Shown: piece by piece, positions 6,723 to 54,849 of the stretch
Layout of the letters: each line of letters opens with the position of its first letter
Position numbering within the stretch: position 1 is the stretch's first letter
Assembly (NCBI GenBank): GCA_016936655.1
Contig: JAFGXL010000030.1
Coordinates: 1 to 64,000 of the forward strand
From: Nitrospirota bacterium
GTDB taxonomy: Bacteria; Nitrospirota; Thermodesulfovibrionia; Thermodesulfovibrionales; Dissulfurispiraceae
Direction of reading: 5' to 3'
Length of the DNA: 64,000 bases
Position numbers and translations under genes: made by a program
Notes under the pieces: model-generated
Told to the model about the DNA's origin: nothing
Seen by the model: the letters and a program-made list of their open reading frames with translations, nothing else
Databases searched by the model: none

Positions 6723-6816
6723 CAGTTATTGTCCCCCCTGTAAAAAGTCGGCTATCATTTTAGCAAAGAACTGTTTGTTATTTCCAGTCCGGAGCTTCTT
6801 TAATGTTGATGTTATA

Positions 6817-7314
6817 TCATCTATAGTTTGAAAATTGCAGGTGTATTCCAAAATCTTTTTCCTTGAGCAGTGATATTACCTGCTGAAGATCGTCTATCTT
6901 CTTTGCCTTTACCCTGACCTGATCTTTCTGAATCTCTGAAGAGACCTTCATCTTTGTATCCTTTATGCATTTTACAATCTCTTTTGCCTTCTCCTGAGGT
7001 ATCCCCTGCTGCAGACTGATTGCCTGACGCACGGTGCTGCCGGCAGCAGACTCTATCTTGCCGTATGTAAGAGCCTTAAGCGAAATGCCTCTTTTGATTA
7101 TTTTTGACTGAAGTATATCAATAACGCTCTTAAGTTTCTGTTCATCGTCAGAAACAAGAGTAATAACAGCCTTTGCTTTATCAAGATCAATGTCGCTCTT
7201 GCTGCCCTTAAAGTCGAACCTCTGGGTCAGCTCCTTAAGCGCCTGCGTAACAGCATTTGTCACCTCCTGCATATCTATTTCGCAGATAACATCAAATGCA
7301 TGTTCATCAGCCAT
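6817..7314 (-). CDS. yajQ: YajQ-family nucleotide-binding protein
   Basis: 165 aa, the full YajQ (UPF0234) length, with the usual RFDFKGSKSDI and the C-terminal DFGIHLQFSNYR. Known members are small two-domain proteins that bind nucleotides or RNA; the Xanthomonas member binds cyclic di-GMP. Two diguanylate-cyclase genes lie in this window, but no functional link can be read from the sequence. It starts 10 nt after the PsiE-like gene and is probably cotranscribed with it. Confidence 0.9.
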   Translation of the reverse strand: MADEHAFDVICEIDMQEVTNAVTQALKELTQRFDFKGSKSDIDLDKAKAVITLVSDDEQKLKSVIDILQSKIIKRGISLKALTYGKIESAAGSTVRQAISLQQGIPQEKAKEIVKCIKDTKMKVSSEIQKDQVRVKAKKIDDLQQVISLLKEKDFGIHLQFSNYR

Positions 7315-7324
7315 TTAAATCCTC

Positions 7325-7759
7325 CTATTGTTCAAGCCTCTGCGCTTTGACAGCCAGATAGTAGCCTATCATAAATATAATAACAACAACCGCTGTAACC
7401 CCTATCTCTATAAGCTTGTCATGCGATATGGTCTCCATAGCAGACCCTTGAGCTTCTATAAGGAGGATCCTTCTTATGGATGCTATAACGCCTATCGCCA
7501 GAAAAGGGGCAAGAGAAAACTTCTGTTTTTTCAAAAACCTGATCACAGTCCAGAGCAGCTCCAGAATAATCAAGGCGAGCAGCACATCATTAACAAGAGC
7601 GATTACTGCTACTCTAGTAGGATCAGCAAGATTAGCAGCTGCATAGTAGAGCACATAACCGCATGCTATAAAAAGAAGCAGCGCTGCTATCGCATGAAAA
7701 AGCATATCAATCTTTATCAAAAAATCCTTCAAATACTCGCTAATATTGATTTTTTTCAT
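7325..7759 (-). CDS. PsiE-like four-helix membrane protein
   Basis: 144 aa with four hydrophobic segments, matching the phosphate-starvation-inducible PsiE family in size and layout (for example NDVLLALIILELLWTVIRFL and FLAIGVIASIRRILLIEAQG). The function of the family is unknown. The ATG at 7759 follows an AGGGAGGTC motif; an upstream in-frame start at 7798 would add a stretch overlapping the SD region and was not used. A TATAAT on the minus strand (7790-7785) lies just upstream. Confidence 0.8.
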   Translation of the reverse strand: MKKINISEYLKDFLIKIDMLFHAIAALLLFIACGYVLYYAAANLADPTRVAVIALVNDVLLALIILELLWTVIRFLKKQKFSLAPFLAIGVIASIRRILLIEAQGSAMETISHDKLIEIGVTAVVVIIFMIGYYLAVKAQRLEQ

Positions 7760-8014
7760 ATGAGACCTGACCTCCCTGCTGATAATTATATCAGCCAATA
7801 ATAGTCTAACTGTTCAACAACTTCTAATCCAGAATACTTAATACAATAATTTATGGATACAAATTATTGATAAATAATATTTATTTTTAATAGGTTGCGA
7901 TGTAAAGATTTATATACAATAATCCTTATGTCTATGTTAGGATACTTTATCTAAATGTAGTGTATTCATTAAAGATTACATTATTGGGTTCGATAATACA
8001 ATAACGGGAGAATA

Positions 8015-10030
8015 ATGGCTGTTAATCTTGAACTCATAGATATCCAATCGCTTTCAACAGTCCTGGAAGCCGTAACCAATATGTCGGACATATCGTTTGC
8101 TGTCTACGACAACAGCGGACTATTGATAATGCCCGCCAAACAGGAAGACAGGCTCTCATCACAGATTAAATCATCCTCTCTAGGAAGAAAAGAATTTGAC
8201 AAATTCATCCAGGCAGGTGTTGAAAGGGCATTAATAAGAAAAGAGTTTTCCGTTATCAAGGGCTTCACAAACCAGAACCAGCTGTTCATACCAGTAAGCG
8301 TAAACGGATCAAGACTCGTATTTGTGAGCACCCCCTTCTACTACATGCAGCAGGATTTTGATGAGTTTGTCATAACAAAAGGCCAGCTTATGGGTCTACA
8401 TGCAGACCAGGCATCATTATGGGGCAAGATGCTCAAGTTCAAGGATCCTGCTGAAATAGAGAAGCTGGCTCTCAGCCTGAAACCACTCTTTGAAACCCTG
8501 CTCTGGTGCAGCTACGAGAAGAATTTAAACAGCAGAAGATACCAATGGGCAAGAACACTCATAGATGTGCTTTACAGCGTCCAGCTGCCTGCTCACAAAG
8601 AAGAGGTCTACAACCTGATCGTTGACGCAATTCTCTTTTTGTTCAATGTTAACACTGTATCCATATTCACAAAAGATCAGTCCGTATACTCAGCCCATAT
8701 GACATCAGGAAGAATGAGGGACGACGTGAGCAGCACACGCCTTGATGAAAACAATAATTTGGTATCTAGGTGCTTCGAAGGATTTTCACCTGTATCAACA
8801 AACGACATGGTCGAACTATCTAGAATGCGTCTGCCAGAATCTGTAAATTCGATACATCTGTTCCCGCTGTCATTCAATAATATACAGTACGGTCTTATGG
8901 CTATATACAATTCCGTAATAAGCAGAGAAGAGACATACAGCATACTGGAGTTCTGCAAACTTGCCAGTCTTGTGCTAAACAACCTATCCCTTCAGAATGC
9001 CTACGACAAGTGCATAGATGATATGTCGCTGTTGCGCACAGCTGTCACAAGGCTGATACCGCATATACATAATATTGATACTCTTCACGACACAATAGTT
9101 GATACAGCAACAGATCTGATGAAAGCAGAAAAAGGATCTCTGCTTATGCCGGATGAAGGCGCACTATTCATCAAAGCTGTAAAAGGCATTAACAAATGGC
9201 TGACAAAAGACATAAAAGTAAGGTTCGGCGAAGGAGTGGCAGGTAAGGTATTTCAGGATGGCAAGCCACTGCTCTCAAAAAATATAAATGCGCTAGATCT
9301 ACCATGCGTTACCCCTAAAAATCATTATAAAACAGACTCTTTTGTGAGCGTGCCTCTTCAATTCGCATCAGAAACAATGGGCGTTCTTAATATAGCTGAC
9401 AAAATAAGCGGCGAGGCATTCAATGAGCGTGATCTGCATCTTTTAAAATACTTCGCATCATACGCATCTATATCGCTAAAGGTTTTCAGCTACTACAGCT
9501 TGGCCGAAGAGATGAAAGAGCTGTCAATAACAGATCATCTCACAGGCCTCTTTAACCGCAGATATCTGCAGGAGCGCTTCACAGAAGAGATCCACCGCTC
9601 TGAGCGGTATGACCTTAACTTCTCTATCGCAATGTTCGACATCGATGATTTCAAGCTCTTTAACGACTCTGAAGGACACATAGCCGGCGACAGCGTTCTG
9701 AGGGATATATCCAGACTCACAAGAGACTGCCTCAGGACCAATGATGTCATGGCAAGGTTTGGCGGCGAGGAGTTTGCGATAATAATGCCTCAGACAACAA
9801 AAGAAGAGGCATTTATGGTAGCAGAAAGGATCAGGATCAAAATACGGGAAGCTTTCCTCTACAAATGGAAAAAGTTCCCTAAAAACACCCTCACAATAAG
9901 CATGGGAATATCCTGCTTCCCGCAGGACGGCAAGACAGCTGAAGACCTTATCAAGAGCGCCGATGAAGCGCTTTATGAAGCAAAGTCATTCGGAAAGAAC
10001 AAGACCGTCCTCTTTTCCTCAAACAGATAA
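8015..10030 (+). CDS. GAF-GGDEF diguanylate cyclase with N-terminal sensory region
   Basis: 671 aa, apparently cytoplasmic. Residues 1-130 resemble a PocR-like ligand-binding fold (tentative). A linker follows, then a GAF domain around 340-490 and a GGDEF domain from about 505. The active site is GGEEF (583-587), with RTND exactly five residues before it, so the product-inhibition I-site is present. It should make cyclic di-GMP. The start has a clear GGGAG SD. The gene is followed directly by the sensor kinase pair that faces the nap cluster. The ligand is unknown. Confidence 0.88.
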   Translation: MAVNLELIDIQSLSTVLEAVTNMSDISFAVYDNSGLLIMPAKQEDRLSSQIKSSSLGRKEFDKFIQAGVERALIRKEFSVIKGFTNQNQLFIPVSVNGSRLVFVSTPFYYMQQDFDEFVITKGQLMGLHADQASLWGKMLKFKDPAEIEKLALSLKPLFETLLWCSYEKNLNSRRYQWARTLIDVLYSVQLPAHKEEVYNLIVDAILFLFNVNTVSIFTKDQSVYSAHMTSGRMRDDVSSTRLDENNNLVSRCFEGFSPVSTNDMVELSRMRLPESVNSIHLFPLSFNNIQYGLMAIYNSVISREETYSILEFCKLASLVLNNLSLQNAYDKCIDDMSLLRTAVTRLIPHIHNIDTLHDTIVDTATDLMKAEKGSLLMPDEGALFIKAVKGINKWLTKDIKVRFGEGVAGKVFQDGKPLLSKNINALDLPCVTPKNHYKTDSFVSVPLQFASETMGVLNIADKISGEAFNERDLHLLKYFASYASISLKVFSYYSLAEEMKELSITDHLTGLFNRRYLQERFTEEIHRSERYDLNFSIAMFDIDDFKLFNDSEGHIAGDSVLRDISRLTRDCLRTNDVMARFGGEEFAIIMPQTTKEEAFMVAERIRIKIREAFLYKWKKFPKNTLTISMGISCFPQDGKTAEDLIKSADEALYEAKSFGKNKTVLFSSNR

Positions 10031-10105: not shown

Positions 10106-11824
10106 ATGAAGAACAGACCTGAAAACAGGGACAACATGTCCATACCGCTAAACCTTAAGCTCATTTTCGGATGCTGCATAACTCTGCTAGCAGCCCTCGG
10201 CATATCATTCTATGTAATAGAAACCAAACAGGAACGCCTTATCATGACACAGGTAGAGAATGAGGCGCGTGTAATCTTTCAGCAGATAGTAATTACACGC
10301 AAATGGATAGCAGATCACGGCGGCATTTATATAGAAAAGATGCCATGGAAAAAACCGAGTCCATATATAAAACACTCTGTAATAACAGACAAAACAGGAA
10401 CAAAATATCTTAAAGAGACTCCGGCTATGGTCACAAAAGAGCTCTCAACCTATTCTAAAGATCAGGGACTCTACTGGTTTCATATAACAAGCCTTAAACT
10501 GACAAATCCCGCTAACGCACCTGATGGATTTGAGCGCAAAGCTCTGATGCAGTTTGAATCGAGCAATACAAAAGAGATATTCAACATACAAGACATCGGC
10601 GACAAAAAATACCTGAGATTCATTTCCCCATTGTATATAGAGCAGCCATGCCTCTCTTGCCACTCTCACCAAGGCTATAAGATAGGCGATGTCAGAGGAG
10701 CAATCAGCATAACAATACCAATAGACAAGACTCTGGCGGAAATAACAGAGAACAAGAAAAACATGTTTGTAGCCGGCACAGTAACCATAGGCTCTTTAAT
10801 GTTCGCTCTTTTTCTCATGATGAAGAAGCTGGTGCTCACTCCTGTAAGAAAGCTCAAATCATATATAAAGGCTTTTTCAGAAGGCAGATACAGCAGAGAC
10901 AAGATACTCAAAACAGGAGACGAATTTGAGGACTTATCAAGATCTTTCTCAGACATGGCTGGCAAGCTCTCAGACTATCATGACAGCCTGAACGACAAAA
11001 TCATGGCAGCAACAACAGACATTGAACTCACAAACAAAAAACTCACAGAAGCCAATGCCATGCTGAACGAACTAAATATAAGAAAATCAGACTTCATAGC
11101 AAGGGCATCCCATGAGCTCAGGACTCCGCTAACATCCATCAAGGGAGCTATGGATTTTGTCTCTGCAAGACTCTCATTCCTTCCGGAAAAATACAATATA
11201 GACAAAAACTCTATCGCTGATATACAGACATTTCTAGAAATCATAAACAAAAACTCTGAGCGCCTGATACGCATGGTGAACGACATGCTTGATCTGGAGC
11301 GCATAGAGGCCGGATCATCTGAGCTCTTCTTCAGCTCTGCAAATATCAGCTCTCTTTTATCAGAAACTCTCACATATTTACAGATAGAAGCAGCGCAAAA
11401 AGGCGTCATATTTGAACTCGATACCCCTGCAGAGATAACAGCCGACATGGACGAAGACAGGATAAGACAGGTCTTGATCAACCTTTTGTCAAACGCTCTA
11501 AAAATAAGCCCTCAAGACTCTGCCATAAAAATCTCTGCATCTTCCTCTGGAGGAGCAGCAACCGTATACGTAGCTGATCAAGGACCGGGTGTGGCTCATC
11601 AGTACCACGAGAAAATATTCGAGAAATTTTTTAAATTGGGGCCAAAGAAAGACGGCACTGGTCTCGGTCTTGCCGTATGCAAGAGCATAGTAGAGGCTCA
11701 TGGTGGTATTATATGGGTACAGGATAACAAGCCAGAGGGCGCGGTATTCTGCTTCAGCATTCCAGCCTCACAAAAAAACAAAATCGATATAAAGGAGATA
11801 TGCAGTATTGACAGAGCAAGCTAG
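10106..11824 (+). CDS. Sensor histidine kinase with periplasmic heme-c (DUF3365/Tll0287-like) domain
   Basis: 572 aa. One TM helix at 17-37, then a periplasmic domain ending in QPCLSCHSHQG, a c-type heme motif (C182, C185, H186), then a second TM (about 222-240). HAMP covers about 240-295. The kinase core follows with the phospho-acceptor in ASHELRTP (H336), the N-box NLLSNALKIS, DQGPGVA and GTGLGLAV. Known heme-c sensors of this design respond to redox state or gases such as NO. The next gene is its likely response regulator. The position converging on the nitrate/nitrite reductase cluster suggests it controls that cluster (inference). A TATAAT at 10086-10091 leaves a very short leader. Confidence 0.88.
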   Translation: MKNRPENRDNMSIPLNLKLIFGCCITLLAALGISFYVIETKQERLIMTQVENEARVIFQQIVITRKWIADHGGIYIEKMPWKKPSPYIKHSVITDKTGTKYLKETPAMVTKELSTYSKDQGLYWFHITSLKLTNPANAPDGFERKALMQFESSNTKEIFNIQDIGDKKYLRFISPLYIEQPCLSCHSHQGYKIGDVRGAISITIPIDKTLAEITENKKNMFVAGTVTIGSLMFALFLMMKKLVLTPVRKLKSYIKAFSEGRYSRDKILKTGDEFEDLSRSFSDMAGKLSDYHDSLNDKIMAATTDIELTNKKLTEANAMLNELNIRKSDFIARASHELRTPLTSIKGAMDFVSARLSFLPEKYNIDKNSIADIQTFLEIINKNSERLIRMVNDMLDLERIEAGSSELFFSSANISSLLSETLTYLQIEAAQKGVIFELDTPAEITADMDEDRIRQVLINLLSNALKISPQDSAIKISASSSGGAATVYVADQGPGVAHQYHEKIFEKFFKLGPKKDGTGLGLAVCKSIVEAHGGIIWVQDNKPEGAVFCFSIPASQKNKIDIKEICSIDRAS

Positions 11825-11855
11825 ATCTTAGCACTGACAACACTGCTGATAGGTC

Positions 11856-12539
11856 ATGACAACAACAATACTAGTGATTGACGACGACCCTGACATACTA
11901 AAGGTCTTAAAGGCAAACCTTGAGCTCCACCAATTCAATACACTAACAGCATCAAGCTGGGCAGAGGGCTCAAAACAAATTGCAGATTCCTCACCTGACC
12001 TGCTTATACTGGATCTTATGCTTCCGGACAAGGACGGCATAGAGATATGCAAGTCAGTCAGGTCACAGCACCCCGGCATGCCGATAATAATGCTTACAGC
12101 CAAGGATAAAATCTCAGACAAGGTGACAGGACTCGAGAGCGGAGCGGATGACTATGTGGTAAAACCATTTGAAACCCTCGAACTTATAGCCAGAATAAAA
12201 GCATGCCTCAGGCGCATTGGACCTGAGATGAAAGAGAGCCATCTTACAATAGGCAGTCTGCACATAGACTACAAGAGAAGAATCGTAAAGATTGAGGATA
12301 AAGAGGTGCTGCTCACACCAAAGGAGTATGATCTGTTATGCCTGCTCTCATCAAAGCGCGGATTAGTTATAAGCAGAGAAGAGATCAAGACAGAGCTCTG
12401 GAGGGAGTCCAATATTTATACATGGAGCAGAGTGATAGATGTGCATATTCAGCACCTGCGCCAGAAGATCGAAAAAAACCCCTCAGACCCGGAATATATC
12501 CTGACAGTCTCAGGGGTTGGTTATCGCTTTAAACAATAA
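11856..12539 (+). CDS. OmpR/PhoB-family response regulator
   Basis: 227 aa. The receiver domain has the acidic pair DDD at 9-11, phospho-acceptor D53 in ILDLMLPDKDG, T81 and K103 (VVKPF). The winged-helix DNA-binding domain spans about 125-226 (LTPKEYDLLCLL, VIDVHIQHLRQKIE, VSGVGYRF). It starts 31 nt after the heme sensor kinase stop and is its presumed partner. It ends 13 bp from napD, tail to tail. Confidence 0.93.
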   Translation: MTTTILVIDDDPDILKVLKANLELHQFNTLTASSWAEGSKQIADSSPDLLILDLMLPDKDGIEICKSVRSQHPGMPIIMLTAKDKISDKVTGLESGADDYVVKPFETLELIARIKACLRRIGPEMKESHLTIGSLHIDYKRRIVKIEDKEVLLTPKEYDLLCLLSSKRGLVISREEIKTELWRESNIYTWSRVIDVHIQHLRQKIEKNPSDPEYILTVSGVGYRFKQ

Positions 12540-12552: not shown

Positions 12553-12825
12553 TTAGTGAGTAAGCTCAGAACCATCTTCTTGTACTGAGCTCGCATCAGC
12601 TCCATCTAGACTGTAATAGGCCAAATATACATTTCTTACGCCATCTATATACTTAAGCTGTTCAAAAACTGCCTTTGCATCGCCAAGCGTATCCCTTTCG
12701 ATAAGAAAAACCACCTTATCGTTTTCAACAGTATCAACCTCAACCTGCCTTGATGCAAGTTCATCCGTAACCGGCTTAACATCATCTGTTGTATTAACCT
12801 CCATATAACCGCTGGCAATTACCAT
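12553..12825 (-). CDS. napD: NapD-like chaperone for periplasmic nitrate reductase
   Basis: 90 aa. The sequence starts VIASGYMEVN and has the compact beta-alpha-beta pattern of NapD (VVFLIERDTLGDAKAVFEQL, DGVRNVYLAYYSLDG). NapD binds the twin-arginine signal of NapA and delays export until the Mo cofactor is inserted; NapA here does carry such a signal. It is the last gene of the napG-napH-napD unit, 18 nt after napH. Small size makes the family call less certain than for its neighbours, but context agrees. Confidence 0.8.
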   Translation of the reverse strand: MVIASGYMEVNTTDDVKPVTDELASRQVEVDTVENDKVVFLIERDTLGDAKAVFEQLKYIDGVRNVYLAYYSLDGADASSVQEDGSELTH

Positions 12826-12843
12826 AAGCCCCCTCTAGAAATT

Positions 12844-13758
12844 TTATTTTAAAGATAGGTTCATTTTAATTATTTTGCTCTTTGTATTGCAAGCCTCTAT
12901 GCATCTGCCGCAGAAAATACAGTTGCTATCACGAATTATTTTATCGCCATTTTTAACATAATCGCTAACCTTAACACCCATATAGCATGCCCTGTCACAT
13001 GCTTTGCAGCCCTTGCAAAGATCATTATCCGTAATCATTAGCTTAAGTCTGCTTACCTTGTTAAAAAGACCGTAAACCCTGCCTACCGGACAGATCAATC
13101 TGCACCACATGCGAGGGAATATAAGCTCAAGAATAATCAGGAAGCCAATGACTGCAAAGGAGAATATTATCACATCCACAGCAACAGGCAGATCCATAAA
13201 AAAGAAATAAGCTCCTGTCAGTGACCTAAAGAAATTTGTGAGGTGTGAAAAATAGTTTGTAAAAACCGGTATGCCAACAGCAAAAGAAACTGCTAAAAAA
13301 ACTAAAGGTATTATATAACCATAATTTGGAGATATTTTAAAATCAAATATCTTGCACTTTCTTATCCTGTCAGCCACATGGAAAATATAGTCCATAGGGC
13401 ATACCCATCCGCAGAATGACCTGCCAAAAATAAGATATACAACAAGTATCGGAAGCGCCGATAAAAGGGCAATCAGTCCAAAATCTTTTGATGCGAATAT
13501 ACTCTCAAGATAAGCAAAGACATCCAGCAGATTAACGAACCATATTGCTAAAGATCCCGTAAGGCTGCCTACAGCAATCTTAACCCTAAGAAACTGAAGA
13601 AGGAAAAAAACAACAACAGCAATCAGTACAAATCTTCTTAGAGTTGATAATTTATGACCTTTAAGCCAGTTTAGCAGCCCTTTTTTATTATTCTTCGATA
13701 AATTAGAGCATGTTGGCTCTTCATCCGGCGTATTGTTTACATTAGTCTCTGTACTCAC
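12844..13758 (-). CDS. napH: NapH-type membrane ferredoxin (quinol dehydrogenase subunit)
   Basis: 304 aa, GTG start, overlapping the napG 3' end by 17 nt. Four to five TM helices carry the cytoplasmic motifs CGWVCPMDYIFH and RLICPVGR typical of NapH. A C-terminal 2[4Fe-4S] ferredoxin domain follows (CKGCKACDRACYMGV, CIFCGRCIEACNTKSK). NapH with NapG oxidises menaquinol and passes electrons to the periplasm. No NapC is encoded nearby, so NapGH is the likely quinol link for this nitrate reductase. Confidence 0.92.
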   Translation of the reverse strand: MSTETNVNNTPDEEPTCSNLSKNNKKGLLNWLKGHKLSTLRRFVLIAVVVFFLLQFLRVKIAVGSLTGSLAIWFVNLLDVFAYLESIFASKDFGLIALLSALPILVVYLIFGRSFCGWVCPMDYIFHVADRIRKCKIFDFKISPNYGYIIPLVFLAVSFAVGIPVFTNYFSHLTNFFRSLTGAYFFFMDLPVAVDVIIFSFAVIGFLIILELIFPRMWCRLICPVGRVYGLFNKVSRLKLMITDNDLCKGCKACDRACYMGVKVSDYVKNGDKIIRDSNCIFCGRCIEACNTKSKIIKMNLSLK

Positions 13759-14512
13759 GCTCTATTATCCTCCCTCTTGACATTATTAACGGTAGATTAA
13801 CTCCATAGACAAGATTGTACCTCTCCTCATTTGTCATATTCATTGTCTTCTTAAAATCAGCTAGGTAGTTATCTTTAACTTTTTTGTATTCATCGCGCGT
13901 TATAATTTTTATCGCAGAACCTCCAAGAGGGCAAAACTTAGCACATAGACCGCAGCCGACACATTTATCATTTATCATTGGCTGATTGCCCCATTCGCCA
14001 TTGTAGAAATCAAATATTGTTGCTCCCATTGGACATGCCTTACTGCATGAGAGACAGACATCACCGTTCCATCCAAAGCATATAGACAGATCAATCAGAG
14101 CCATGCCCATCTTAACATCCTCTTTCTTTACAGGCTGTAGAGCGCCTGTAGGACAACTCTTTAGGCACTCCATACAAAGAGCGCATGGAAAGTCTCGTGT
14201 GTCTTTTACATACGGGAGTCCGAAATTTTTGAGATCACTTAACCCAGCAATTGAAAGGGTATCATACTTCATTGTATGGCAAACATTTACGCACACGCCG
14301 CAACTGATGCACTTAGCCCTAAACTCCTTCTCAGGAAGTGCTCCTGGAGGTCTTATAATACCTCCTATATTGATATTGGGAAGAGGTTCAAACCCTTCCT
14401 TGTTAGCTGCTGCATTGGCGTCATTATCAAAAACAGATATAGCGCCAGATAGCGCACTCGCAGCTCCTGCAGTTAGAGAAAGCTTAAGAAAATCCCGTCT
14501 GTCGAATTCCAT
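13742..14512 (-). CDS. napG: NapG-type periplasmic ferredoxin
   Basis: 256 aa with a twin-arginine signal (DRRDFLKLS, then a hydrophobic stretch to about residue 34). Four Cys clusters for four [4Fe-4S] centres are visible: CISCGVCVNVCH, CALCMECLKSCP, CLSCSKACP and CVGCGLCAKFCP. NapG accepts electrons from NapH on the periplasmic side. The SD (GGAAGG) and ATG at 14512 are clear. A 44-bp palindrome and a sigma70-like promoter lie upstream, so napGHD probably forms its own transcription unit. Confidence 0.93.
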   Translation of the reverse strand: MEFDRRDFLKLSLTAGAASALSGAISVFDNDANAAANKEGFEPLPNINIGGIIRPPGALPEKEFRAKCISCGVCVNVCHTMKYDTLSIAGLSDLKNFGLPYVKDTRDFPCALCMECLKSCPTGALQPVKKEDVKMGMALIDLSICFGWNGDVCLSCSKACPMGATIFDFYNGEWGNQPMINDKCVGCGLCAKFCPLGGSAIKIITRDEYKKVKDNYLADFKKTMNMTNEERYNLVYGVNLPLIMSRGRIIEREYRD

Positions 14513-14538
14513 TCCGCTACCTTCCTATTACTGTTCAT

Positions 14539-14601
14539 AGAGTTATGCTGAAATGTGCATATGCACATTTTAGCATAACTCTGTTTAACAAAATATGTCA
14601 A
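14539..14601 (-). promoter_or_regulatory. napGHD promoter with a 44-bp palindrome over the -10 and start site
   Basis: On the minus strand TTGACA (14601-14596), 18 nt, then TATGCT (14577-14572). A dyad of two 22-nt arms (14539-14560 and 14561-14582) overlaps the -10 and predicted start, with one mismatched pair (14550/14571). Its core is AAATGTGCATATGCACATTT, which resembles CRP/FNR-superfamily operators in shape, though TGTGC is not a standard half-site. It could also fold as an RNA hairpin at the end of the ppiC transcript; no U-run follows, so I favour an operator. Confidence 0.6.
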
Positions 14602-14612
14602 GCTTCAGCCGG

Positions 14613-15548
14613 TTATTTTGCCTGATTTTGCTCTCCAGCATGGCTATTTCCCTGCTGCTCGCTCTTTGGCTTGCCTTGGTTTGCAGCTTTGACAATCTTA
14701 TCTACCTCAGATTTGTTTATATCAATCTTATATTTCTTCTTTACATCTTCTATATATTTTTCGAACATGGCCTGCTGCTTATCCTGCTGCATAACGCGCC
14801 TTATATCCTCTTTAATAGTGTTAAGGTCCAGCGCGCTGCCCTGCTTCACATCTGTAATCTTAAGTATATGGAATCCTAACTGAGTATTTACAGGAGCACT
14901 CACCTCACCTTTTTTCATCTTCTGAACAACCTGATCAAGCCCAGCAGGCAGCCTGCCTGGCTCTAGTATTCCTAAATCTCCACCGTTTTTAGCGGTCTCT
15001 TTGTCCTCAGAAAGCTCTTTTGCTATCTTTGCGAAATCCTCACCTTTGTTAAGACGATCCTTTACTTTGTCAGCATCTGCCCGGGTCTTGACCTGTATGT
15101 GGCTAACCCTGAATGAAGCAGGCGAGCCAAACTGATCCTTATTCTCATTGTAATATGCCTGAACATCCCTGTCAGATATTTTCACATCTTTTTTTGCGAC
15201 CTCTTTTTCAAGTAACATCTGGATGGCAGTAACTTTCTTGATATACTCGATCTTGCTTATATAATCAGGATCACTCTGAACATTCTTGCTCTTTGCTTCA
15301 AAACCTAGAGCCTCTTTGTTGGCATAATCTTCAAGAAACTTTATATATGTCTGCGCATCCCTCATAAGTGTCTGCCTAAATTCTTCAGGCATTTTTTTTA
15401 ATTCCTTGTCAAGATCAGCTTTGCTTATTGTCACATCATTGATCTTTATCAGGTAGTCTCCACCTGAAGCAGTCTTGGGTTGATCAGCCCCTTTGCTGCA
15501 TGCAGCAACAAACAAACAACAGATTACAAGCGCCAAAAACTTTCTCAT
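14613..15548 (-). CDS. PpiC/SurA-type peptidyl-prolyl isomerase lipoprotein
   Basis: 311 aa. The N-terminus is a lipoprotein signal (CLFVAACSK, lipid-modified Cys about residue 17). A SurA/PrsA-like chaperone segment follows, then a parvulin domain at about 140-240 (RVSHIQVKTRADADKVKDRL, LGFHILKITD), then a Gln/Lys-rich tail. It should act as a foldase in the periplasm. It lies 44 nt after the cytochrome c maturation gene ccsB and before napGHD, so it probably helps fold exported heme or Mo proteins; that role is inference. Confidence 0.88.
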   Translation of the reverse strand: MRKFLALVICCLFVAACSKGADQPKTASGGDYLIKINDVTISKADLDKELKKMPEEFRQTLMRDAQTYIKFLEDYANKEALGFEAKSKNVQSDPDYISKIEYIKKVTAIQMLLEKEVAKKDVKISDRDVQAYYNENKDQFGSPASFRVSHIQVKTRADADKVKDRLNKGEDFAKIAKELSEDKETAKNGGDLGILEPGRLPAGLDQVVQKMKKGEVSAPVNTQLGFHILKITDVKQGSALDLNTIKEDIRRVMQQDKQQAMFEKYIEDVKKKYKIDINKSEVDKIVKAANQGKPKSEQQGNSHAGEQNQAK

Positions 15549-15592
15549 TGCTCCTCCTGTGCTATACTTCCGCCTCTAATGAAACGGCAATT

Positions 15593-16975
15593 TTATCTCA
15601 GCAATAAAGCTGCTATCTTATCTATCTTTCTTGTGTGAACTCCGGATCCCCTGTTGGATGAGCCGGCAATAAGCACCCTTGTCTTTGAGCCTACACTTTC
15701 GATTTTTATCCAGAGTCGCTGATGGCTCATAAAAAAACATGCGTACAGACCTGCGCACAAGGCGGCAAAACCAAAATATATTATTTCCATGCCCGGCATG
15801 CTGTTCACCTGAATCCCGGTATACTGGACACCCCAGAGATCCTGAAACTCTATCTTGAATCCTTCTCCAGATATGCCTGTTTCTGGCTTGCGCTTAAGTA
15901 TCCATACATATCCCTTGAGCGTTCCGGATTCCTTTATCTCGAGCTGCACAGCAGGGTTTGTCATGTTATTCTCCCTTATCGATACAGCTCCTGTTGTCTG
16001 GTCAATCACTATGGAAGGATTAAAGTCCACTATCTTTGCTGTTATATCCGTACCCTGTATTGCAAAGGAATCATTGAACTTAAGCCTCTTGATTTCTGAA
16101 CCTGAAGGACCTGACACATTTAACACAAAGAGCGCATTTTTCTGAGGATAGAATCCAAAGTTCGTCTGGTATATTTTCACGCCTTCAAATACATACGGGC
16201 TGTTCACAACCACCTCTGCCTTTTGCAACTCATTGCCGCCCCTGATGATAGTAAGCATGCTCTTATACTCCTTTGCAGAAAAAGAGTTGTCATAAAACCT
16301 TACATCAAAATCATCACACCTTATACTGAATGGAAGCCTCTTCTCTGTGCCGTTTTTAAGAAGTATCGTATCAGTAGTCTCGCCTTCAAGAATATTTATA
16401 TAGCCGTTGTATCCGTAAAGTCCATTAATCATTGCTCCGCCAAAAATGAGCACAATGCTAAGATGAGTCACATACACTCCAAGGCGGCTGAAGCGCCATT
16501 TCTCAGCGCATATTACTTTATTAGTATCGTTAGAAACTATCGGCTTTCTGAACCCTGTTTTTTTGAGAGACTCTACAACAAGCAGCTTAGTCTGCTGCTC
16601 ATCAGACTGAATGATCAGATCTCTGGCATCCAGACTCGAAAAAGCCTCATCAGATAAAGGAGTTATTGGTGACCTTGCAGCCCTGAAAGCACTAGGCAGC
16701 TTATCAATTGTGCATACAACTATATTTACGCAAAAAAGGAAAAGAAGAGATACAAACCACCATGAGCTATACATATCAGTAAGCCCTAGCTTCTCAACAA
16801 CAGGATAAAGACTCTTTGCTGTCTCCTCGCTGAATATCTTCTGGAGCGACCTTACGCCCTGCTCATCAGTGGCATTCTGGATAATTACAGTGCCTATAAT
16901 GGATACAATGGAAATAATGCTAAAAAGAACCACCGCAAGCCTTACAGATGAAAAAAATTTCCATATCCTGTTCAA
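15593..16975 (-). CDS. ccsB: CcsB/ResB-type cytochrome c biogenesis protein
   Basis: 460 aa, TTG start with AGGAAGG about 10 nt upstream. The N-terminus WKFFSSVRLAVVLFSIISIV, TM helices near 70-90 and 165-185, a large periplasmic domain and a last TM near 405-425 are the ResB/Ccs1 pattern. With CcsA it delivers heme across the membrane and ligates it to apocytochromes in system II. CcsA is not in this window. Its place between napA and napGHD fits the need to mature the octaheme and mono-heme proteins encoded upstream. A terminator at 17048-17079 separates it from napA. Confidence 0.9.
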   Translation of the reverse strand: MNRIWKFFSSVRLAVVLFSIISIVSIIGTVIIQNATDEQGVRSLQKIFSEETAKSLYPVVEKLGLTDMYSSWWFVSLLFLFCVNIVVCTIDKLPSAFRAARSPITPLSDEAFSSLDARDLIIQSDEQQTKLLVVESLKKTGFRKPIVSNDTNKVICAEKWRFSRLGVYVTHLSIVLIFGGAMINGLYGYNGYINILEGETTDTILLKNGTEKRLPFSIRCDDFDVRFYDNSFSAKEYKSMLTIIRGGNELQKAEVVVNSPYVFEGVKIYQTNFGFYPQKNALFVLNVSGPSGSEIKRLKFNDSFAIQGTDITAKIVDFNPSIVIDQTTGAVSIRENNMTNPAVQLEIKESGTLKGYVWILKRKPETGISGEGFKIEFQDLWGVQYTGIQVNSMPGMEIIYFGFAALCAGLYACFFMSHQRLWIKIESVGSKTRVLIAGSSNRGSGVHTRKIDKIAALLLR

Positions 16976-17047
16976 ATAAAAATACCTTCCTGTTTTGTCA
17001 TCTTAAAGACTCTGAACCAGACAGCCTGAAGTGGCATCTGCATATAA

Positions 17048-17079
17048 AATACGGGACACGAAAAACCGTGTCCCGTATT
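17048..17079 (-). terminator. Rho-independent terminator after napA
   Basis: A perfect 13-bp stem (AATACGGGACACG at 17048-17060 with its complement 17067-17079) and a 6-nt loop end in a short U-run on the minus strand, 17 nt beyond the napA stop. It closes the onr-Reeler-napA unit, so ccsB-ppiC needs its own promoter or read-through. Confidence 0.85.
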
Positions 17080-17095
17080 ATGACATACATCAAAC

Positions 17096-20000
17096 TTATG
17101 CAACAATCTTTAAAGGCTCAGCCTGCTTGCCTTTTGTTTTACCCTTGTAAATCTTAACAGCAAACATCTTATAGTCAGCCTGGAAGCTGAATGGATCAAA
17201 CGCGTCTCTCATTATCATGTTGACAAGCTTAAACTCGTCAAACCATGGGATAAAGACATAGTCCTGTCTAGGGCCTCCTGTTGCCTTTGTTACATCAAGC
17301 ACCTTTGCAGGAAGCTGAATCTTTCCTCTAGGCGATTCAACTATTACAGCGTCGCCATTCTTGATCCTCAGCTTCTTGGCAAGGATCTCATTAATCTCGA
17401 CATATGCACCCGGAACTGCACGGTTAAGCTCAGGAACTCTGGTTGTCATACTTCCTGAATGCCAGTGCTCGATAACTCTGCCTGTACATGCTCCGTATTT
17501 ATACTGAGTTGTGTCGATGATAACGAGCTCACTGCCGTCAGCCTTCTTGTAAGAGTGTCTGAGGTTTGCGAACTCAGCAGGGCTGAGACCTATATTCTTA
17601 AGCGCATTGAGATCCTTGTTGGGGTCGCCAATGACATTTACAGTATACTTTGCCTTAATATCAAAAGGCAGTACGCTGTTTACTTCAACCTTCTTTGGAT
17701 TGAACACCCTCTCTATTACTTCGACGGTGTTATGCCTTACGAACTTCTTGCCGTCAAATTTGCATGACCACCATGGGTTTGCCCATGCTATCGGCCGACC
17801 GTCGATCATAGGGATCTTCGTACCCTTTTTAGTTGGATGATCGCCAAGACCATGTATGAACGGGTTAGAAGCATAGAAACTGACATACCAGCCTGCAGGA
17901 AGCTTATTAGCTGCATGATAAGCTGTATCCTTCTTCTCTTCCTCCATGTTCTTCTCGAGCCATGCTCCATATACAGGGTTGAAGGTCTTCATTGCTGCAA
18001 TATAACCTTTTGTCCTTTCATCTATATGCGGATCATATGGATACGCAAATTGTATTCTTGATTCATACTTGTCATATCTCGCCTTTACGCTAGGATTGGT
18101 ATGATATGATTCTGGCAAAGGCTGCCTGTAACCATGGTTTCTCTTTAGGAGCATATCACGGTGCATACCAGAAAAGTCATAATATGTATTTCTTGTAACA
18201 TCCCTTATCTCTTCCCAGATGTTAGTAGTGAACTTTCTGTTCCAGTCGAGAGTCTTTGCAGCCTTAATGGTCGTCTCCATCCAGTTTGCTGTATCGTACT
18301 CTGCTGGCCAGAACTGTGACGCAAGACCTTTTGGTATCACACCCTTTTCTTCAAGCCTTCTCATGATCATAGCTGTGATTGTATGGTCAGGGATTGTATC
18401 TCCGTATGGAGTAATTGTGTTTTTGATAATCTGGTATCTTCTCTCCAGGTTACCATAGAGATACTCTTTCTCACCCCATGTTGATGCGCCAAGAACTACA
18501 TCAGAAACCTGTGTTGTAGCGTTAGGGAATGATTCGAATGTTACAATAAAAGGCCACGGAGTTCCCTTGTGAGCGCCACCCATAGCGAGTCTGTAAGGCC
18601 ATGAATATGGGTTACTCTGTCCAGGGTTAACTGTGGATATAAACATAACTTTAACCTGATCAGAACCAAGCCTTCTAAAGCTCTCGACTGTATGCGGACC
18701 AGGCTTGTCATGTATCTTTATCTTTGCGTTCTCAGCAGCTATCTCAGCATCTGACATGCCTTTCTTCTTGAGGTATGCTGCTGTCCTCTTCTTCCAGATA
18801 TCCTCTATCTGCTTTCTGTGAATAGGGTTGGCTACAAGCCTGCCGTATGGAAGTGCATGACAGAGCGCTCCAGGAGCTCTAACACCACCGCAAGCGTTTG
18901 GCTGGCCGGTAAAGCTGAAAGAGAGCTTGCCGGGTTTGCATGTCTGCCCTGTTATAAAATGGAGCATATGCAATGAAGCATTTGTCCATGTGCCCTGAAG
19001 CTTCTGGTTAACACCCATTGTCCAGCATGTTACTGTATGACCTTCAGCAAACCATTTTGCTGCTTGCCTGATAGCTTCAGGACCGCTAATCTTCTTCCAA
19101 GTCCTTGTCTTTCTATCATAAATAAGAGGAGACTCATTCTCGAAACAGATCTCATTAATCTTCTCTGGTTTATAATCCTCAAGAAAATTAAGATACAGAG
19201 CAAATCCCTTATAGAGGTCGTTCATTATCTCGGCCTCAGAGCTGTACTTCTTCTTAGGATTAGGATAAACCTGTGATTTATTACCAGGAAGCGGAGGAGC
19301 TGTGTAGGAAAGATCCCACGCATCGCCTCTTGTTCCGCCGTATGAGGTCTTTATCCATACCTTTTTTACATCATGATGAATACCAAAGCTTACATGCCTC
19401 TCGATGAACTTCTTGTCGAGATACTTCCAGTCAGCAGTAACTGCTCCCTTCTCAAGATCATACTTGGCATTGTCAAGCTCGTGAGCTATAACATAAGCCA
19501 TTGAGTTTAGAAGAACGAGGTCTCTGCCTGTTGAGAATGGAAGCCAAAGATCAGCTATGGTACCAGACCTTGTCTTTCTCGGATCAGCAAGTATGACCTT
19601 TGCGTTAGGATTTTTTGCCTTAACAGTTGCCATTCTGTTAAAGATAATCGGGTGTGCTTCCGCAGTATTTGTGCCGATCAAGAAAAATGTATCTGCATGC
19701 TGTTTGAAGTCAGGATCAGGAACATCTATATCATCAAGAGAGCCCCATGGTTCATCCTTGCCAACTGCGTAGAGATAGCCGACAACAGCTGATGCCATAC
19801 ACATTCTTGGCTGACCCTCAATAGCATTGTTCTGCAATCCGCCCTTCATAAAATCATTGAAAATATGAGACTCTTCTGTGCCAGCCTGACCACTTCCATA
19901 GTAGTTAATACTATGCTTACCATGTTCTTTAAATGATTTTTCTGTCATATCAGCAACAAAGTTAATGGCTGTATCCCAAGGAATTTTAACAAAATTTTCC

Positions 20001-20434
20001 TTAAAGTCAATCTCTGAAGCCTTTATTCCTTTCGGGTCCTTTGAGTTTAAACCATTAACTACTCTCGGGGAATTTACAAAATCTGGCTTCCCTGTTGCAG
20101 GGTTAATCCATTCTTTTCTCACAAAGGCTCCGGAAGGCCTGTCCTTGTAAGCTATTGCCTTATGGAGATAAAAACCTTTTGTGCAGAGCACACCCCTATT
20201 GACTGTACTTTTGAGATCGCCTTTAACAGCGATAATCTTTTTAGGATTACCGTTAGCATCAAGCTCAACCTCCGAGATCATCGCACACCCGATAGCACAA
20301 TAACGGCATGGGCCGGCGGGATACGATTTTACATTATTAGCTGCATGGAGAAGCTCAGGCTTTGCGATTCCTGCAGCAGCTGCTGCAGTTGTGATCGCAC
20401 TAGCCCTCAGAAAATCCCTCCTGCTTAGTTTCAT
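17096..20434 (-). CDS. napA: Periplasmic nitrate reductase catalytic subunit, enlarged NapA
   Basis: 1112 aa. Twin-arginine signal SRRDFLRAS. The [4Fe-4S] motif is CRYCAIGC with the fourth Cys in VNRGVLCTKG. The presumed Mo-ligand Cys is in RMCMASAVVGY, as in NapA (CMAS). The C-terminus GRVIEHWHSGSMTTRVPELN and VFIPWFDEFKLVNMI match NapA closely. It binds bis-MGD and reduces nitrate to nitrite in the periplasm. Proteobacterial NapA is about 830 aa, so roughly 280 residues are extra, spread as insertions (around 330-420, 560-600 and 760-900). Formate dehydrogenase was excluded by the Cys context and C-terminus. It lies 32 nt after the Reeler heme protein. Confidence 0.9.
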   Translation of the reverse strand: MKLSRRDFLRASAITTAAAAAGIAKPELLHAANNVKSYPAGPCRYCAIGCAMISEVELDANGNPKKIIAVKGDLKSTVNRGVLCTKGFYLHKAIAYKDRPSGAFVRKEWINPATGKPDFVNSPRVVNGLNSKDPKGIKASEIDFKENFVKIPWDTAINFVADMTEKSFKEHGKHSINYYGSGQAGTEESHIFNDFMKGGLQNNAIEGQPRMCMASAVVGYLYAVGKDEPWGSLDDIDVPDPDFKQHADTFFLIGTNTAEAHPIIFNRMATVKAKNPNAKVILADPRKTRSGTIADLWLPFSTGRDLVLLNSMAYVIAHELDNAKYDLEKGAVTADWKYLDKKFIERHVSFGIHHDVKKVWIKTSYGGTRGDAWDLSYTAPPLPGNKSQVYPNPKKKYSSEAEIMNDLYKGFALYLNFLEDYKPEKINEICFENESPLIYDRKTRTWKKISGPEAIRQAAKWFAEGHTVTCWTMGVNQKLQGTWTNASLHMLHFITGQTCKPGKLSFSFTGQPNACGGVRAPGALCHALPYGRLVANPIHRKQIEDIWKKRTAAYLKKKGMSDAEIAAENAKIKIHDKPGPHTVESFRRLGSDQVKVMFISTVNPGQSNPYSWPYRLAMGGAHKGTPWPFIVTFESFPNATTQVSDVVLGASTWGEKEYLYGNLERRYQIIKNTITPYGDTIPDHTITAMIMRRLEEKGVIPKGLASQFWPAEYDTANWMETTIKAAKTLDWNRKFTTNIWEEIRDVTRNTYYDFSGMHRDMLLKRNHGYRQPLPESYHTNPSVKARYDKYESRIQFAYPYDPHIDERTKGYIAAMKTFNPVYGAWLEKNMEEEKKDTAYHAANKLPAGWYVSFYASNPFIHGLGDHPTKKGTKIPMIDGRPIAWANPWWSCKFDGKKFVRHNTVEVIERVFNPKKVEVNSVLPFDIKAKYTVNVIGDPNKDLNALKNIGLSPAEFANLRHSYKKADGSELVIIDTTQYKYGACTGRVIEHWHSGSMTTRVPELNRAVPGAYVEINEILAKKLRIKNGDAVIVESPRGKIQLPAKVLDVTKATGGPRQDYVFIPWFDEFKLVNMIMRDAFDPFSFQADYKMFAVKIYKGKTKGKQAEPLKIVA

Positions 20435-20466
20435 TCAAGTACCCTCCTGAGTTTAGTTAAAGTCTA

Positions 20467-20961
20467 TTATTTAGACTTTATTGAGAAAGCGTTTACGCCG
20501 ACTTCATCACCAGCAGGCGAGAAGTCTCCGTTTGCTGCAACTGCCATTACATTAATATTAACATCACCTTCTTTGGCAGGGGCTTTCCAACCGAATTTCC
20601 ATTTTCTGAACTCGGATCCCTCTTTTGTATGAGTTAACATATTATTGTCGCCAATTTGGGTATTTTTCTTATCCAAAACAACAAAACTGCCTGCGTCTGT
20701 CTGTAAACCAAAACCTCCCTGTACTTCGAGGTCACTTTTCATTTTACTGTCCAAAATAAGTGAGAGTTTGTAGAGCTTGCCAGGTGTGTAGACCTTTGGC
20801 ATACCCTCAATTTTAATTGTTACATCGCCTGAGCCGCCCAAGTGGCAACCCATGCATTCAAAGTTGGCGCCGCTGTTGTTGTGGCCGCTACTGACAGATA
20901 CGCCTAATAAAACGAGTGCTGCAATAAGTACAAAACTTATCATTATCTGCCTTTTGCCCAT
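20467..20961 (-). CDS. Mono-heme c-type protein with Reeler-like domain
   Basis: 164 aa. A signal peptide covers residues 1-26, then a single CMGCH heme-c motif near residue 36. The remainder looks like a Reeler-type beta-sandwich (YTPGKLYKLSLILDS, GGFGLQTDAGSF, WKFGWKAPAKEGDVNINVMA). The gene sits between the octaheme nitrite reductase and napA in the same direction, so it is a candidate electron carrier to NapA in place of the diheme NapB, which is not found here. Function is inferred from context only. Confidence 0.7.
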   Translation of the reverse strand: MGKRQIMISFVLIAALVLLGVSVSSGHNNSGANFECMGCHLGGSGDVTIKIEGMPKVYTPGKLYKLSLILDSKMKSDLEVQGGFGLQTDAGSFVVLDKKNTQIGDNNMLTHTKEGSEFRKWKFGWKAPAKEGDVNINVMAVAANGDFSPAGDEVGVNAFSIKSK

Positions 20962-20984
20962 TTTAACCCCTCTTTAATTTATTT

Positions 20985-21012
20985 AAGGGCGGGAGACCAG
21001 TCTCCCGCCCTT
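20985..21012 (-). other. GC-rich intergenic hairpin between onr and the Reeler gene
   Basis: A 12-bp stem (AAGGGCGGGAGA with its complement) and a CCAG-type 4-nt loop begin 7 nt after the onr stop. The U-run on the minus strand is weak (CTTAAAT), so it may be a partial terminator or a 3'-end stabiliser that gives onr more mRNA than the downstream genes. Confidence 0.65.
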
Positions 21013-21019
21013 TTAATGC

Positions 21020-22792
21020 CTACTTCTTTGCTGATGTCTTTGCAGCTATTGCCTTATTAAGGATATCAAGACCCTTCCAGGAGTGAACAATTGACCTGGA
21101 GAGTGTTGCCTTAGCAAGATCAATATTATGGAAACCGTCAGAGTTTTCAGCTGTCCACCACTCCCAATACATATGGGCTTTTTCGTGGTGTAAGCGGACT
21201 TCATCCAATGTCTTGGAGTCAACACCGAAATCCTTGGCTGTCTGGAATCTGCTCACCATTTCTCTCATCCAAACTTCAGCCTTTCTCATCTGCTGCTTGC
21301 CATAAAGCTTTACACCTTCTGTAGCGTATTCAGCATCCTTAGATGTCCAGTCTGTATGGCAGTTAAGACATGGCTGCCAGTTAAAGTCTCTTGGTGATGC
21401 GTGGAAGTGTGATGAATAAACCTTTCCTCCGTCAGGGTGTGCACCACCGCCGCTGCCGCTTACTGTGCCAAAGTTTGTCTTAACCTTGCCTGCTGTATGG
21501 CAGTCTGTGCACTTAGCACCTGCTTTTGCGTGCGGTGAATTGTGCAAAGATTCAAGCTCAGGATGCTGCGCCTTCCAGAGCTTTGCGCCTGTTACATAGT
21601 GGACAAAATCAAAATATCCCCATTTAATAGTATGGTTCCAGAGAGTCTCTTCCACTATCTTCTTGTTTACAACCTTCGCAAGAGGCTTCAGTGGGAAGTG
21701 GTTTGTCCTTCTGTCTGTAGCAAAATCAAGAGCTACAGGCTTCTTTCCATACTCTGTCTTCTTATAGTCGAAGTGCAGACCGCAGTTGTACTCGACATGA
21801 CACTGTCCGCACTGAAGCAATGAGTCATACTTGTCGAGTATAGCGATCTTTCTCTCATGACCGCGAAGACCAAGACCTTCCTTGTTGCCATAAACCTTGA
21901 AGTTAGCCTTATTAGGATATCCTTCATGCCAAAGTGTGTCCTTCTCAGGTCTTGTAAGAGCTTCAATAAGAGCATCTCTTACAATTCTAGGTTCTGCTGA
22001 GTGAGGATCATGACAGTGTATGCATGGCAGACCATTTCTGAGATACTTGTAAGCGTTGAAAGCAGGATTTACTGCTCTGCTTAAGTCTGATGTCTTTGGT
22101 GAAGGGTCTCCCATATACGGCCATGCAAGATGATCGTCCGAGGTCTTACACTTGAGACATACAGGAACAGCTGCCGGAGCTGTCCTCTCAAGGAATGCCT
22201 TCTTTGGAGCTCTAAGATCCTCTTCAGGGTAAGCGTCAAAAAGAACATCCCATACCTTAGGAGCTATGCCGCTCTTGTCAATAACATACTGGAAGCCTCT
22301 TTTTGACTGGAATCTTCCGCCGTATGCTCTATCATTAAAGAGATGGTCGATGAGCATATACTTATGGCTTCTTGGTTCAGCATGGCTGACTTCAAAAGCA
22401 TATGGTCTCATGAGAACTTCCCAATAAGGTGAACGGCCCTTAGGGTCGCCTTTGTCAAAATTGGGTTTCTTTCTGTAGTTGTGCTGGATAAAGCTTGCAT
22501 GTTGCTCTTTGTGGCATTTTCCGCATGCTTCGTGGTCTGTGTTGCTGAGAGGTCTCTTTGTTACATCCTTCATATGTGTTGCGAGACCTGAATGGCAGTT
22601 ATTGCAGTTAATATCTTTGTGAGCGCCCCTTGTGTGGAAATCCTTAATCAGGGCATGACATTCGTAGCACTTTTTCACATCTACAGGCCACTCGTCAGGT
22701 GTTCTGACAGCGTTTGCGCTTGAGAAGAAGGCAAAGCCTGCAACTGCGATGAGTGCAACGAATACAGTTGCTAAAATGAATTTCTTACTCAT
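21020..22792 (-). CDS. Octaheme nitrite reductase (ONR/TvNiR-type, ammonia-forming)
   Basis: 590 aa from the ATG at 22792, which has a GGAGGGAG SD; residues 1-28 are a signal peptide. Eight heme motifs occur: CYECH (42), CNNCH (63), CGKCH (90), CLKCK (212), CIHCH (257), CGQCH (328), CTDCH (428) and CLNCH (475). A CxxCK at the fourth heme, followed by a five-heme NrfA-like half, is the hallmark of ONR, not of hydroxylamine oxidoreductase. CHVEYNCG supplies the catalytic Tyr335 two residues from Cys337, the spacing that forms a Tyr-Cys thioether in TvNiR. It should reduce nitrite to ammonium in the periplasm. First gene of the onr-Reeler-napA unit; no NrfH is present. Confidence 0.92.
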   Translation of the reverse strand: MSKKFILATVFVALIAVAGFAFFSSANAVRTPDEWPVDVKKCYECHALIKDFHTRGAHKDINCNNCHSGLATHMKDVTKRPLSNTDHEACGKCHKEQHASFIQHNYRKKPNFDKGDPKGRSPYWEVLMRPYAFEVSHAEPRSHKYMLIDHLFNDRAYGGRFQSKRGFQYVIDKSGIAPKVWDVLFDAYPEEDLRAPKKAFLERTAPAAVPVCLKCKTSDDHLAWPYMGDPSPKTSDLSRAVNPAFNAYKYLRNGLPCIHCHDPHSAEPRIVRDALIEALTRPEKDTLWHEGYPNKANFKVYGNKEGLGLRGHERKIAILDKYDSLLQCGQCHVEYNCGLHFDYKKTEYGKKPVALDFATDRRTNHFPLKPLAKVVNKKIVEETLWNHTIKWGYFDFVHYVTGAKLWKAQHPELESLHNSPHAKAGAKCTDCHTAGKVKTNFGTVSGSGGGAHPDGGKVYSSHFHASPRDFNWQPCLNCHTDWTSKDAEYATEGVKLYGKQQMRKAEVWMREMVSRFQTAKDFGVDSKTLDEVRLHHEKAHMYWEWWTAENSDGFHNIDLAKATLSRSIVHSWKGLDILNKAIAAKTSAKK

Positions 22793-22803
22793 CCACTCCC
22801 TCC

Positions 22804-22861
22804 TTGTGTAGGTTTTACAGCTTTTGAAGATAATCGTGATCAACTTCTAAAACCTATACAA
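22804..22861 (-). promoter_or_regulatory. Leader hairpin abutting the onr ribosome-binding site
   Basis: On the minus strand a 14-nt arm (22861-22848, TTGTATAGGTTTTA) pairs with 22817-22804 (TAAAACCTACACAA) with a single U-G pair, and an inner GAAG/CTTC pair extends the fold. The 3' arm ends directly at the AAGGAGGG SD. Such a structure can control access of ribosomes. The loop holds TTGATCACGATTAT, a weak FNR-like half-site. Its function is untested. Confidence 0.55.
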
Positions 22862-33202: not shown

Positions 33203-33447
33203 TTTGTTTCCTCTTTATTTTCTGGCACGCAGTCAAGCATTATGCCCTCTGCCTCAGACTTTCTGAGAGAGAGCCTGTAATTTTTTATGACCACCTCAAT
33301 CGGGTCTCCCATAGGCGCCACCTTTTTGACAATAATTTTTTCTCCAACTATCAGACCCATGTCCATTAATCTTATTTTTAGCGGTCCTTTTATATCCAGC
33401 TTTGAAATTACACCTGACTCTCCAGGTTTGAGCATCCCCAGATTCAT
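33190..33447 (-). CDS. feoA: FeoA-domain protein 1
   Basis: 85 aa, SH3-like FeoA fold (LKPGESGVISKL, RLMDMGLIVGEKIIVKKVAP, VVIKNYRLSLRKSEAEGIML). FeoA binds the FeoB cytoplasmic part and supports transport. It directly precedes feoB and overlaps it. An AGGAGT-type SD is present. Confidence 0.93.
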   Translation of the reverse strand: MNLGMLKPGESGVISKLDIKGPLKIRLMDMGLIVGEKIIVKKVAPMGDPIEVVIKNYRLSLRKSEAEGIMLDCVPENKEETKWEA

Positions 33448-33507
33448 AACTCCTCCTGATATTCGTTCAATATTTTCTGTTGTGGACTAAAACAGTTTTA
33501 CAACTCG

Positions 33508-34544: not shown

Positions 34545-34558
34545 TGTACACCTCCTAT

Positions 34559-54729: not shown

Positions 54730-54849
54730 CCTCAAGACTATTAGATATCAGACGATACAATAAACAAAATATTGCTTCAATGCCGGAGTAATGCGTGATA
54801 TAATTCGTTAAGAGATAAATACGGGAAATTATAAATCTTGGGGGAATTA

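Follow-up and report, generated by a model that had tools for sequence, protein, structure and literature searches.

The locus described here lies in a 64,000-nt window (contig JAFGXL010000030.1, positions 1 to 64,000, of the Nitrospirota assembly GCA_016936655.1), on whose minus strand eight open reading frames between 12553 and 22861 encode an octaheme ammonifying nitrite reductase (ONR), a Reeler protein, an unusually long periplasmic nitrate reductase NapA, the haem-ligation protein ResB, a PpiC-type lipoprotein and NapG, NapH and NapD. The gaps between these genes are short, and the napD end of the operon converges with a response regulator gene and the gene of a sensor kinase that bears a haem motif. 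A sequence-only reading had laid out the same one-strand arrangement (ResB being named CcsB) and had recognised no NapB, NapC or NrfH. All eight frames were confirmed, and searches of the whole genome, a 1.99-Mb draft with relatives among the Nitrospirota, gave zero matches to NapB, zero to the NapC/NirT/NrfH family (PF03264) and no second protein of the NrfA/ONR family, of which the window ONR is the sole member. Since this genome is a draft in 42 contigs and 97% complete, the absence of NapB, NapC and NrfH is strong, not absolute. The system accordingly does not belong to the NapAB(C) type, as both the diheme NapB and the tetraheme NapC are absent from the genome, nor to the NrfHA type, as neither NrfH nor a pentaheme NrfA is encoded, nor to the NapMADGH type, as the slot 5' of napA is occupied by a monoheme Reeler and not by a tetraheme NapM.

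The long NapA (17096..20434, minus strand, 1112 aa) carries a twin-arginine translocation (Tat) signal, one [4Fe-4S] cluster and a bis(molybdopterin guanine dinucleotide) (bis-MGD) site, with matches in Pfam, NCBIfam and the PDB. Both the molybdenum ligand Cys212, within a CMASAV stretch, and the cluster cysteines C43, C46, C50 and C84 are kept, and the best PDB relatives are the NapA of Desulfovibrio desulfuricans (2jio) and other NapAs, the former, a monomeric enzyme, also being the nearest solved fold (TM score 0.87). By cluster cysteines, Mo ligand, Tat signal and fold the protein is a NapA, but its scores against the curated NCBIfam equivalog models (438 against a cut-off of 904 bits, and 411 against 931 bits) leave it NapA-like and outside the curated range. 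About 350 extra residues, missing from NapM-type enzymes, are spread over a dozen places, with the biggest share between residues 780 and 975; their conservation is somewhat lower than that of the core (0.74 versus 0.84 as mean majority residue), and most of them are folded with confidence in the predicted model. Relatives measure 1107-1139 aa, and a tree separates 34 long NapAs from shorter ones with full support, long branches being involved; judged from its sequence, the long NapA is a separate form and one clade. Its substrate in the window organism would be nitrate. On plasmids, only ordinary NapAs with less than 60% identity to it were found. As a side observation, TPR-repeat proteins follow straight after long napA in two relatives (L033:4514-5458 and L034:6108-7013).

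Directly upstream, the Reeler gene (20467..20961, minus strand) encodes a choice-of-anchor-V monoheme cytochrome c of 164 aa, which may serve NapA as electron donor or as docking subunit. It matches PF02014 and, like all 39 Reelers found next to a long NapA, the choice_anch_V model NF041895 (88 bits for the window protein, the cut-off being 42), and it holds a single CxxCH motif (residues 36-40) that is invariant in the 39. In the AlphaFold model (pLDDT 88) the haem motif precedes a beta-sandwich of the reeler type, for which Foldseek returned the F-spondin reeler domain (2zot, E 6e-8); a weaker structural match to a cytochrome f entry serves as a lead only, cytochrome f being a c-type cytochrome with a beta-sandwich domain. 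No redox partnership is recorded for the choice_anch_V/MXAN_6652 family (NF041895, NF041894) in the searchable sources. A search of viral contigs gave no Reeler match. Two Reelers beside long NapA in metagenome-assembled genomes (MAGs) labelled as archaeal (L073:1-522 and L074:7435-7995) end in a hydrophobic helix at the C-terminus, which would suggest anchoring in the membrane.

The ONR gene (21020..22792, minus strand) most likely starts at the ATG at 22792, with GGAGGGAG just before it, yielding 590 aa, while an alternative TTG at 22843 would yield 607 aa. The protein matches PF02335 and contains eight haem c motifs, the fourth being CxxCK, likewise in all 27 ONRs compared. It aligns over its full length to TvNiR of Thioalkalivibrio (2ot4, E 6e-116) with the EPRS, EYNC and QHP active-site stretches kept, so that haem motifs and full-length homology, including the Arg, Tyr-x-Cys and His stretches, place it in the TvNiR/TaNiR family, whose members convert nitrite to ammonium. 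It is a predicted nitrite-to-ammonium reductase. An identity as a Hao-like octaheme protein (PF13447) or as OTR was rejected on the match to PF02335 and not PF13447, the CxxCK motif and the TvNiR alignment. No ONR was found on plasmids.

A scan of 84,980 genomes with two exact peptide patterns, which sets a lower bound on distribution, revealed long NapAs in Nitrospirota, Thermodesulfobacteriota (including Caldimicrobium and Desulfurivibrio AMeS2), Kryptonia, Ignavibacteriales (Ignavibacteria) and two archaeal-labelled MAGs, although the taxon labels of MAGs, archaeal ones included, may be wrong. In all 39 loci (the window and 38 relatives) the Reeler gene lies immediately 5' of the long napA on the same strand, within an annotated gap of at most 165 nt; the apparent overlaps of the two genes in L056 and L071 are due to upstream-extended NapA reading frames. 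The sequence-only reading had proposed looking for its gene order in related genomes, where the order is indeed kept, and conservation over 39 loci excludes chance for the locus. Among 296 Nitrospirota genomes, 19 contain a long NapA (17 of them full length and 68-100% identical, window included), other Nitrospirota NapAs giving only partial matches to it at ~30-50%. A Reeler profile search found one copy in each of the same 19 genomes and none in the other 277 (Fisher p 2e-30, or 3e-19 when genera are counted). NapB is absent from these 19 genomes and from 11 long-NapA genomes of other groups, and the whole NapC/NirT/NrfH family from 7 of the 19, for which reason neither NapC nor NrfH can be required. 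The invariant unit of the locus is Reeler plus long NapA.

Nature has also varied what surrounds this pair. Most Nitrospirota NapAs of ~767 aa have a four-haem gene adjacent, and in two genomes (G014 and G225) a NapM-like tetraheme gene sits in the Reeler slot. G014 belongs to the family of the window organism, and its locus L049 reads argS, then ONR, NapM, a 767-aa NapA, NapG and NapH, then genes for a response regulator, a histidine kinase and a GGDEF protein; at the matching site the window has argS, then ONR, Reeler, long NapA, ResB, PpiC, NapG, NapH and NapD, then the same three regulatory genes. The G014 ONR nests among the ONRs of Reeler loci. NapM and Reeler are thus exchanged at one chromosomal site. 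The nitrite reductase of these loci is likewise exchangeable between ONR, NrfHA and Hao-like proteins: NrfHA takes this part in L037 and L067, a Hao-like octaheme protein is the neighbour in L032 and L063 (by PF13447 match in Pfam) and in L054 and L077 (by BLAST), and no nitrite reductase lies near Reeler-long NapA in L083 and L066. In L037 the nitrite reductases have been swapped naturally: NrfH-NrfA (6047-8627) immediately precedes Reeler-NapA, in the usual place of ONR. ONR can therefore not be regarded as a fixed part of the module, and the Reeler tracks NapA and not the nitrite reductase, since the pair persists with NrfHA, a Hao-like protein or no neighbouring nitrite reductase at all.

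How, then, might electrons reach the long NapA? NapGH is a quinol dehydrogenase and NapA reduces nitrate; of the known partners of NapA, NapB carries two haems and NapM four. In the window, NapG (13742..14512, minus strand, 256 aa; PRK09476, E 2e-34, with a TAT_signal match) is a Tat-exported polyferredoxin, and NapH (12844..13758, minus strand, 304 aa; TIGR02163 at 139 bits, PRK09477) a membrane ferredoxin of the quinol dehydrogenase type, napH overlapping napG by 17 nt. NapG follows 3' of long napA in every locus with 450 nt or more of 3' flanking sequence except L034, where NapH lies on the same contig ~8 kb from napA. We consider it quite probable from the comparisons above that this is a nitrate-to-ammonium operon built around the long NapA, in which the monoheme Reeler would act as a dedicated redox partner replacing the diheme NapB or the tetraheme NapM. 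The sequence-only reading had already led electrons from NapH through NapG to the Reeler or directly to NapA and ONR, and our data support a locus in which no quinol dehydrogenase other than NapGH is at hand and the Reeler haem protein is a likely intermediate. Electrons would pass from menaquinol to NapH, NapG, the haem c of the Reeler, the [4Fe-4S] cluster of NapA and finally Mo-bisMGD, where nitrate would be reduced to nitrite. The step that we propose is the Reeler haem as a bridge from NapG to NapA. The adjacent ONR would take nitrite on to ammonium, fed either by NapGH itself or by another periplasmic carrier. We infer the direction and order of electron transfer, a physical contact between Reeler and NapA and the donor to ONR; feeding of ONR would be the weakest step of the route, with NapGH as the only local candidate.

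Several points weigh against a redox role of the Reeler. The absence of NapB from the 19 Nitrospirota genomes is by itself not significant (p 0.38), and a distance-matrix comparison of co-inheritance did not rank Reeler-NapA higher than the other pairs in the operon. For a shuttle, a single haem is a small number, and neither candidate for the distal haem ligand is invariant, His111 being present in 38 and Met139 in 36 of the 39 Reelers. Operon partners can, moreover, be maturation factors, and NapG could reduce NapA directly. The latter two points meet in an alternative that we regard as unlikely, though worth keeping in mind, namely that NapG feeds the long NapA directly, with the extra segments as its docking site, and that the Reeler, as a factor in the structure or maturation of NapA or in the delivery of haem to it, carries no respiratory current. 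NapG is nearly always found 3' of long napA, direct transfer from NapGH to NapA is a published proposal for systems that lack NapB (PMC5317091), and the ~350 additional residues that could form such a site are those which NapM-type enzymes lack. Reeler domains of animals, too, act as extracellular protein modules. Yet the CxxCH motif has been retained without exception in 39 of 39 Reelers, as expected of a working haem, and in the sister system the very same slot is taken by the tetraheme NapM.

If the Reeler is accepted as a carrier, it might instead serve the nitrite reductase, or both enzymes, and not be specific to NapA. Its position between ONR and napA in most loci would suit such a role, as would an ONR that lacks an NrfH partner in the window genome; this is nevertheless a poor prospect, given that the Reeler stays with NapA whether the neighbour is NrfHA, Hao-like or missing, and is itself missing where ONR accompanies a NapM-type NapA (L049). 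Most improbable to us is that the long NapA chiefly reduces another oxyanion and that the locus is no module for dissimilatory nitrate reduction to ammonium. This idea draws on the curated model score far under its cut-off and on the many insertions around the NapA core; against it stand NapAs as the closest relatives by both sequence and fold, the retained Cys212 and cluster residues, the linked NapD and NapGH, the induction by nitrate in Desulfurivibrio (PMC5516251, PMC12142623) and the nitrite reductase that most loci have next door. A Reeler dedicated to the long NapA remains the reading that we prefer.

The remaining genes of the operon are less constant. ResB/CcsB (15593..16975, minus strand, 460 aa; PF05140, 296 bits) and the PpiC-type peptidyl-prolyl isomerase lipoprotein (14613..15548, minus strand, 311 aa; PF13145/PF00639, with a lipobox FVAAC read from the sequence) occur in at least 3 and at least 8 of the 39 loci, respectively, both being lower bounds as contigs end. 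The locus encodes no CcsA, and the window ResB is an extra copy, since contig C8 has a ResB-CcsA pair of its own (G000:C8:20881-23314). The self-contained module of the sequence-only reading, which brings along factors for haem ligation and folding, does not generalise; plausibly, ResB and PpiC are lineage-specific helpers in haem attachment to ONR and in folding of the secreted parts. The NapD-like chaperone (12553..12825, minus strand, 90 aa) is recognised weakly, its 24.5 bits against PF03927 falling short of the cut-off of 28, and most relatives have a NapD homologue at the same place, the operon end. Facing it on the plus strand are an OmpR-type response regulator (11856..12539; PF00072 and PF00486), convergent with napD and with homologues (>50 bits) near 18 of the 38 related loci, and a sensor histidine kinase (10106..11824; PF11845, PF00512, PF02518) with a Tll0287-like periplasmic domain bearing CxxCH, which is linked to many related loci, the NapM-type L049 included. 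Together (10106-12539) they may regulate the operon in response to nitrate/nitrite or redox state. Scans for promoters and terminators gave chance-level results. A GAF-GGDEF diguanylate cyclase (8015-10030) adjoins the sensor kinase, the same adjacency being seen in L037 and L049. Elsewhere in the window lie two divergent feoB genes of unequal length, ~1.7 kb apart (30998-36858), and a tandem pair of PilT/PilU-like type II/IV secretion ATPases (54838-57079).

What donates electrons to NapB-less NapA of this type has been asked since 2017 or earlier; the Reeler offers a testable candidate, small and cloneable, and Desulfurivibrio, a carrier of the pair, can be cultured. If our proposal holds true, we would know of no earlier case in which choice-of-anchor-V/Reeler haem proteins take part in respiration. 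Furthermore, long napA plus reeler would then serve as a marker for nitrate ammonifiers that surveys based on napB, napC or nrfH have missed, for instance in aquifers, hot springs and sulfur-disproportionating communities.

Several known systems resemble the window locus in part. In Desulfurivibrio alkaliphilus, Thorup et al. 2017 described a nitrate-induced napAGHD operon without napB, whose NapA they placed in a novel type together with the Kryptonia enzyme it resembles and whose donor they called unknown (PMC5516251), and in Desulfurivibrio dismutans AMeS2 NapA is strongly raised during growth on nitrate (PMC12142623); the Reeler gene is unmentioned in the main texts of both papers. The two species are like the window in napAGHD and in ammonium formation with an ONR (PMC5516251, PMC12142623). 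The AMeS2 assembly encodes a long NapA of the window clade with Reeler and NapGHD (L083), NapB was not found there, and from the gene order NapAGHD its napA would correspond to RS11645. Unlike in the window, ONR is not beside napA in D. dismutans, and ResB and PpiC are lacking from the locus. Trichlorobacter ammonificans, said to have been described by Sorokin et al. in 2023, reportedly has a periplasmic Nap of the NapAB kind beside an octaheme ammonifying reductase (TaNiR), with NapGH proposed as quinol dehydrogenase for both; we know of no report of a long NapA or a Reeler in this organism.

Deferribacter (PMC6896113) and Caldithrix (PMC5317091) possess NapMADGH and a Hao-like octaheme protein without NapB or NapC and are thus similar to the window in lacking these two, in NapGH and in an adjacent octaheme candidate nitrite reductase. 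They differ from it by a tetraheme NapM in place of a monoheme Reeler and a Hao-type octaheme protein in place of ONR, and a long NapA is undescribed there. The fold of the window NapA is closest to that of Desulfovibrio desulfuricans, the organism in which NapM was first described. A Nap with an octaheme reductase and without NapB, NapC and NrfH is hence a variant of modules known from Desulfurivibrio, Trichlorobacter and Deferribacteres, and the headline of the sequence-only reading, NapA and an octaheme reductase lacking NapB and NapC, is not new in itself (PMC6896113, PMC5317091, PMC5516251, PMC12142623). A literature search, from which subscription journals were largely missing, returned no paper that brings up a Reeler in connection with periplasmic nitrate reductase, and none that mentions choice-of-anchor V together with nitrate; the strict pairing of long NapA with Reeler looks unreported in the searchable literature. 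On balance, we find it rather likely that the long NapA, obligately accompanied by a monoheme Reeler, represents a third class of periplasmic nitrate reductase beside NapAB and NapMA, one that would extend over several bacterial phyla and archaea, could be swapped for the NapM type as a cassette and would make use of any nitrite reductase at hand.

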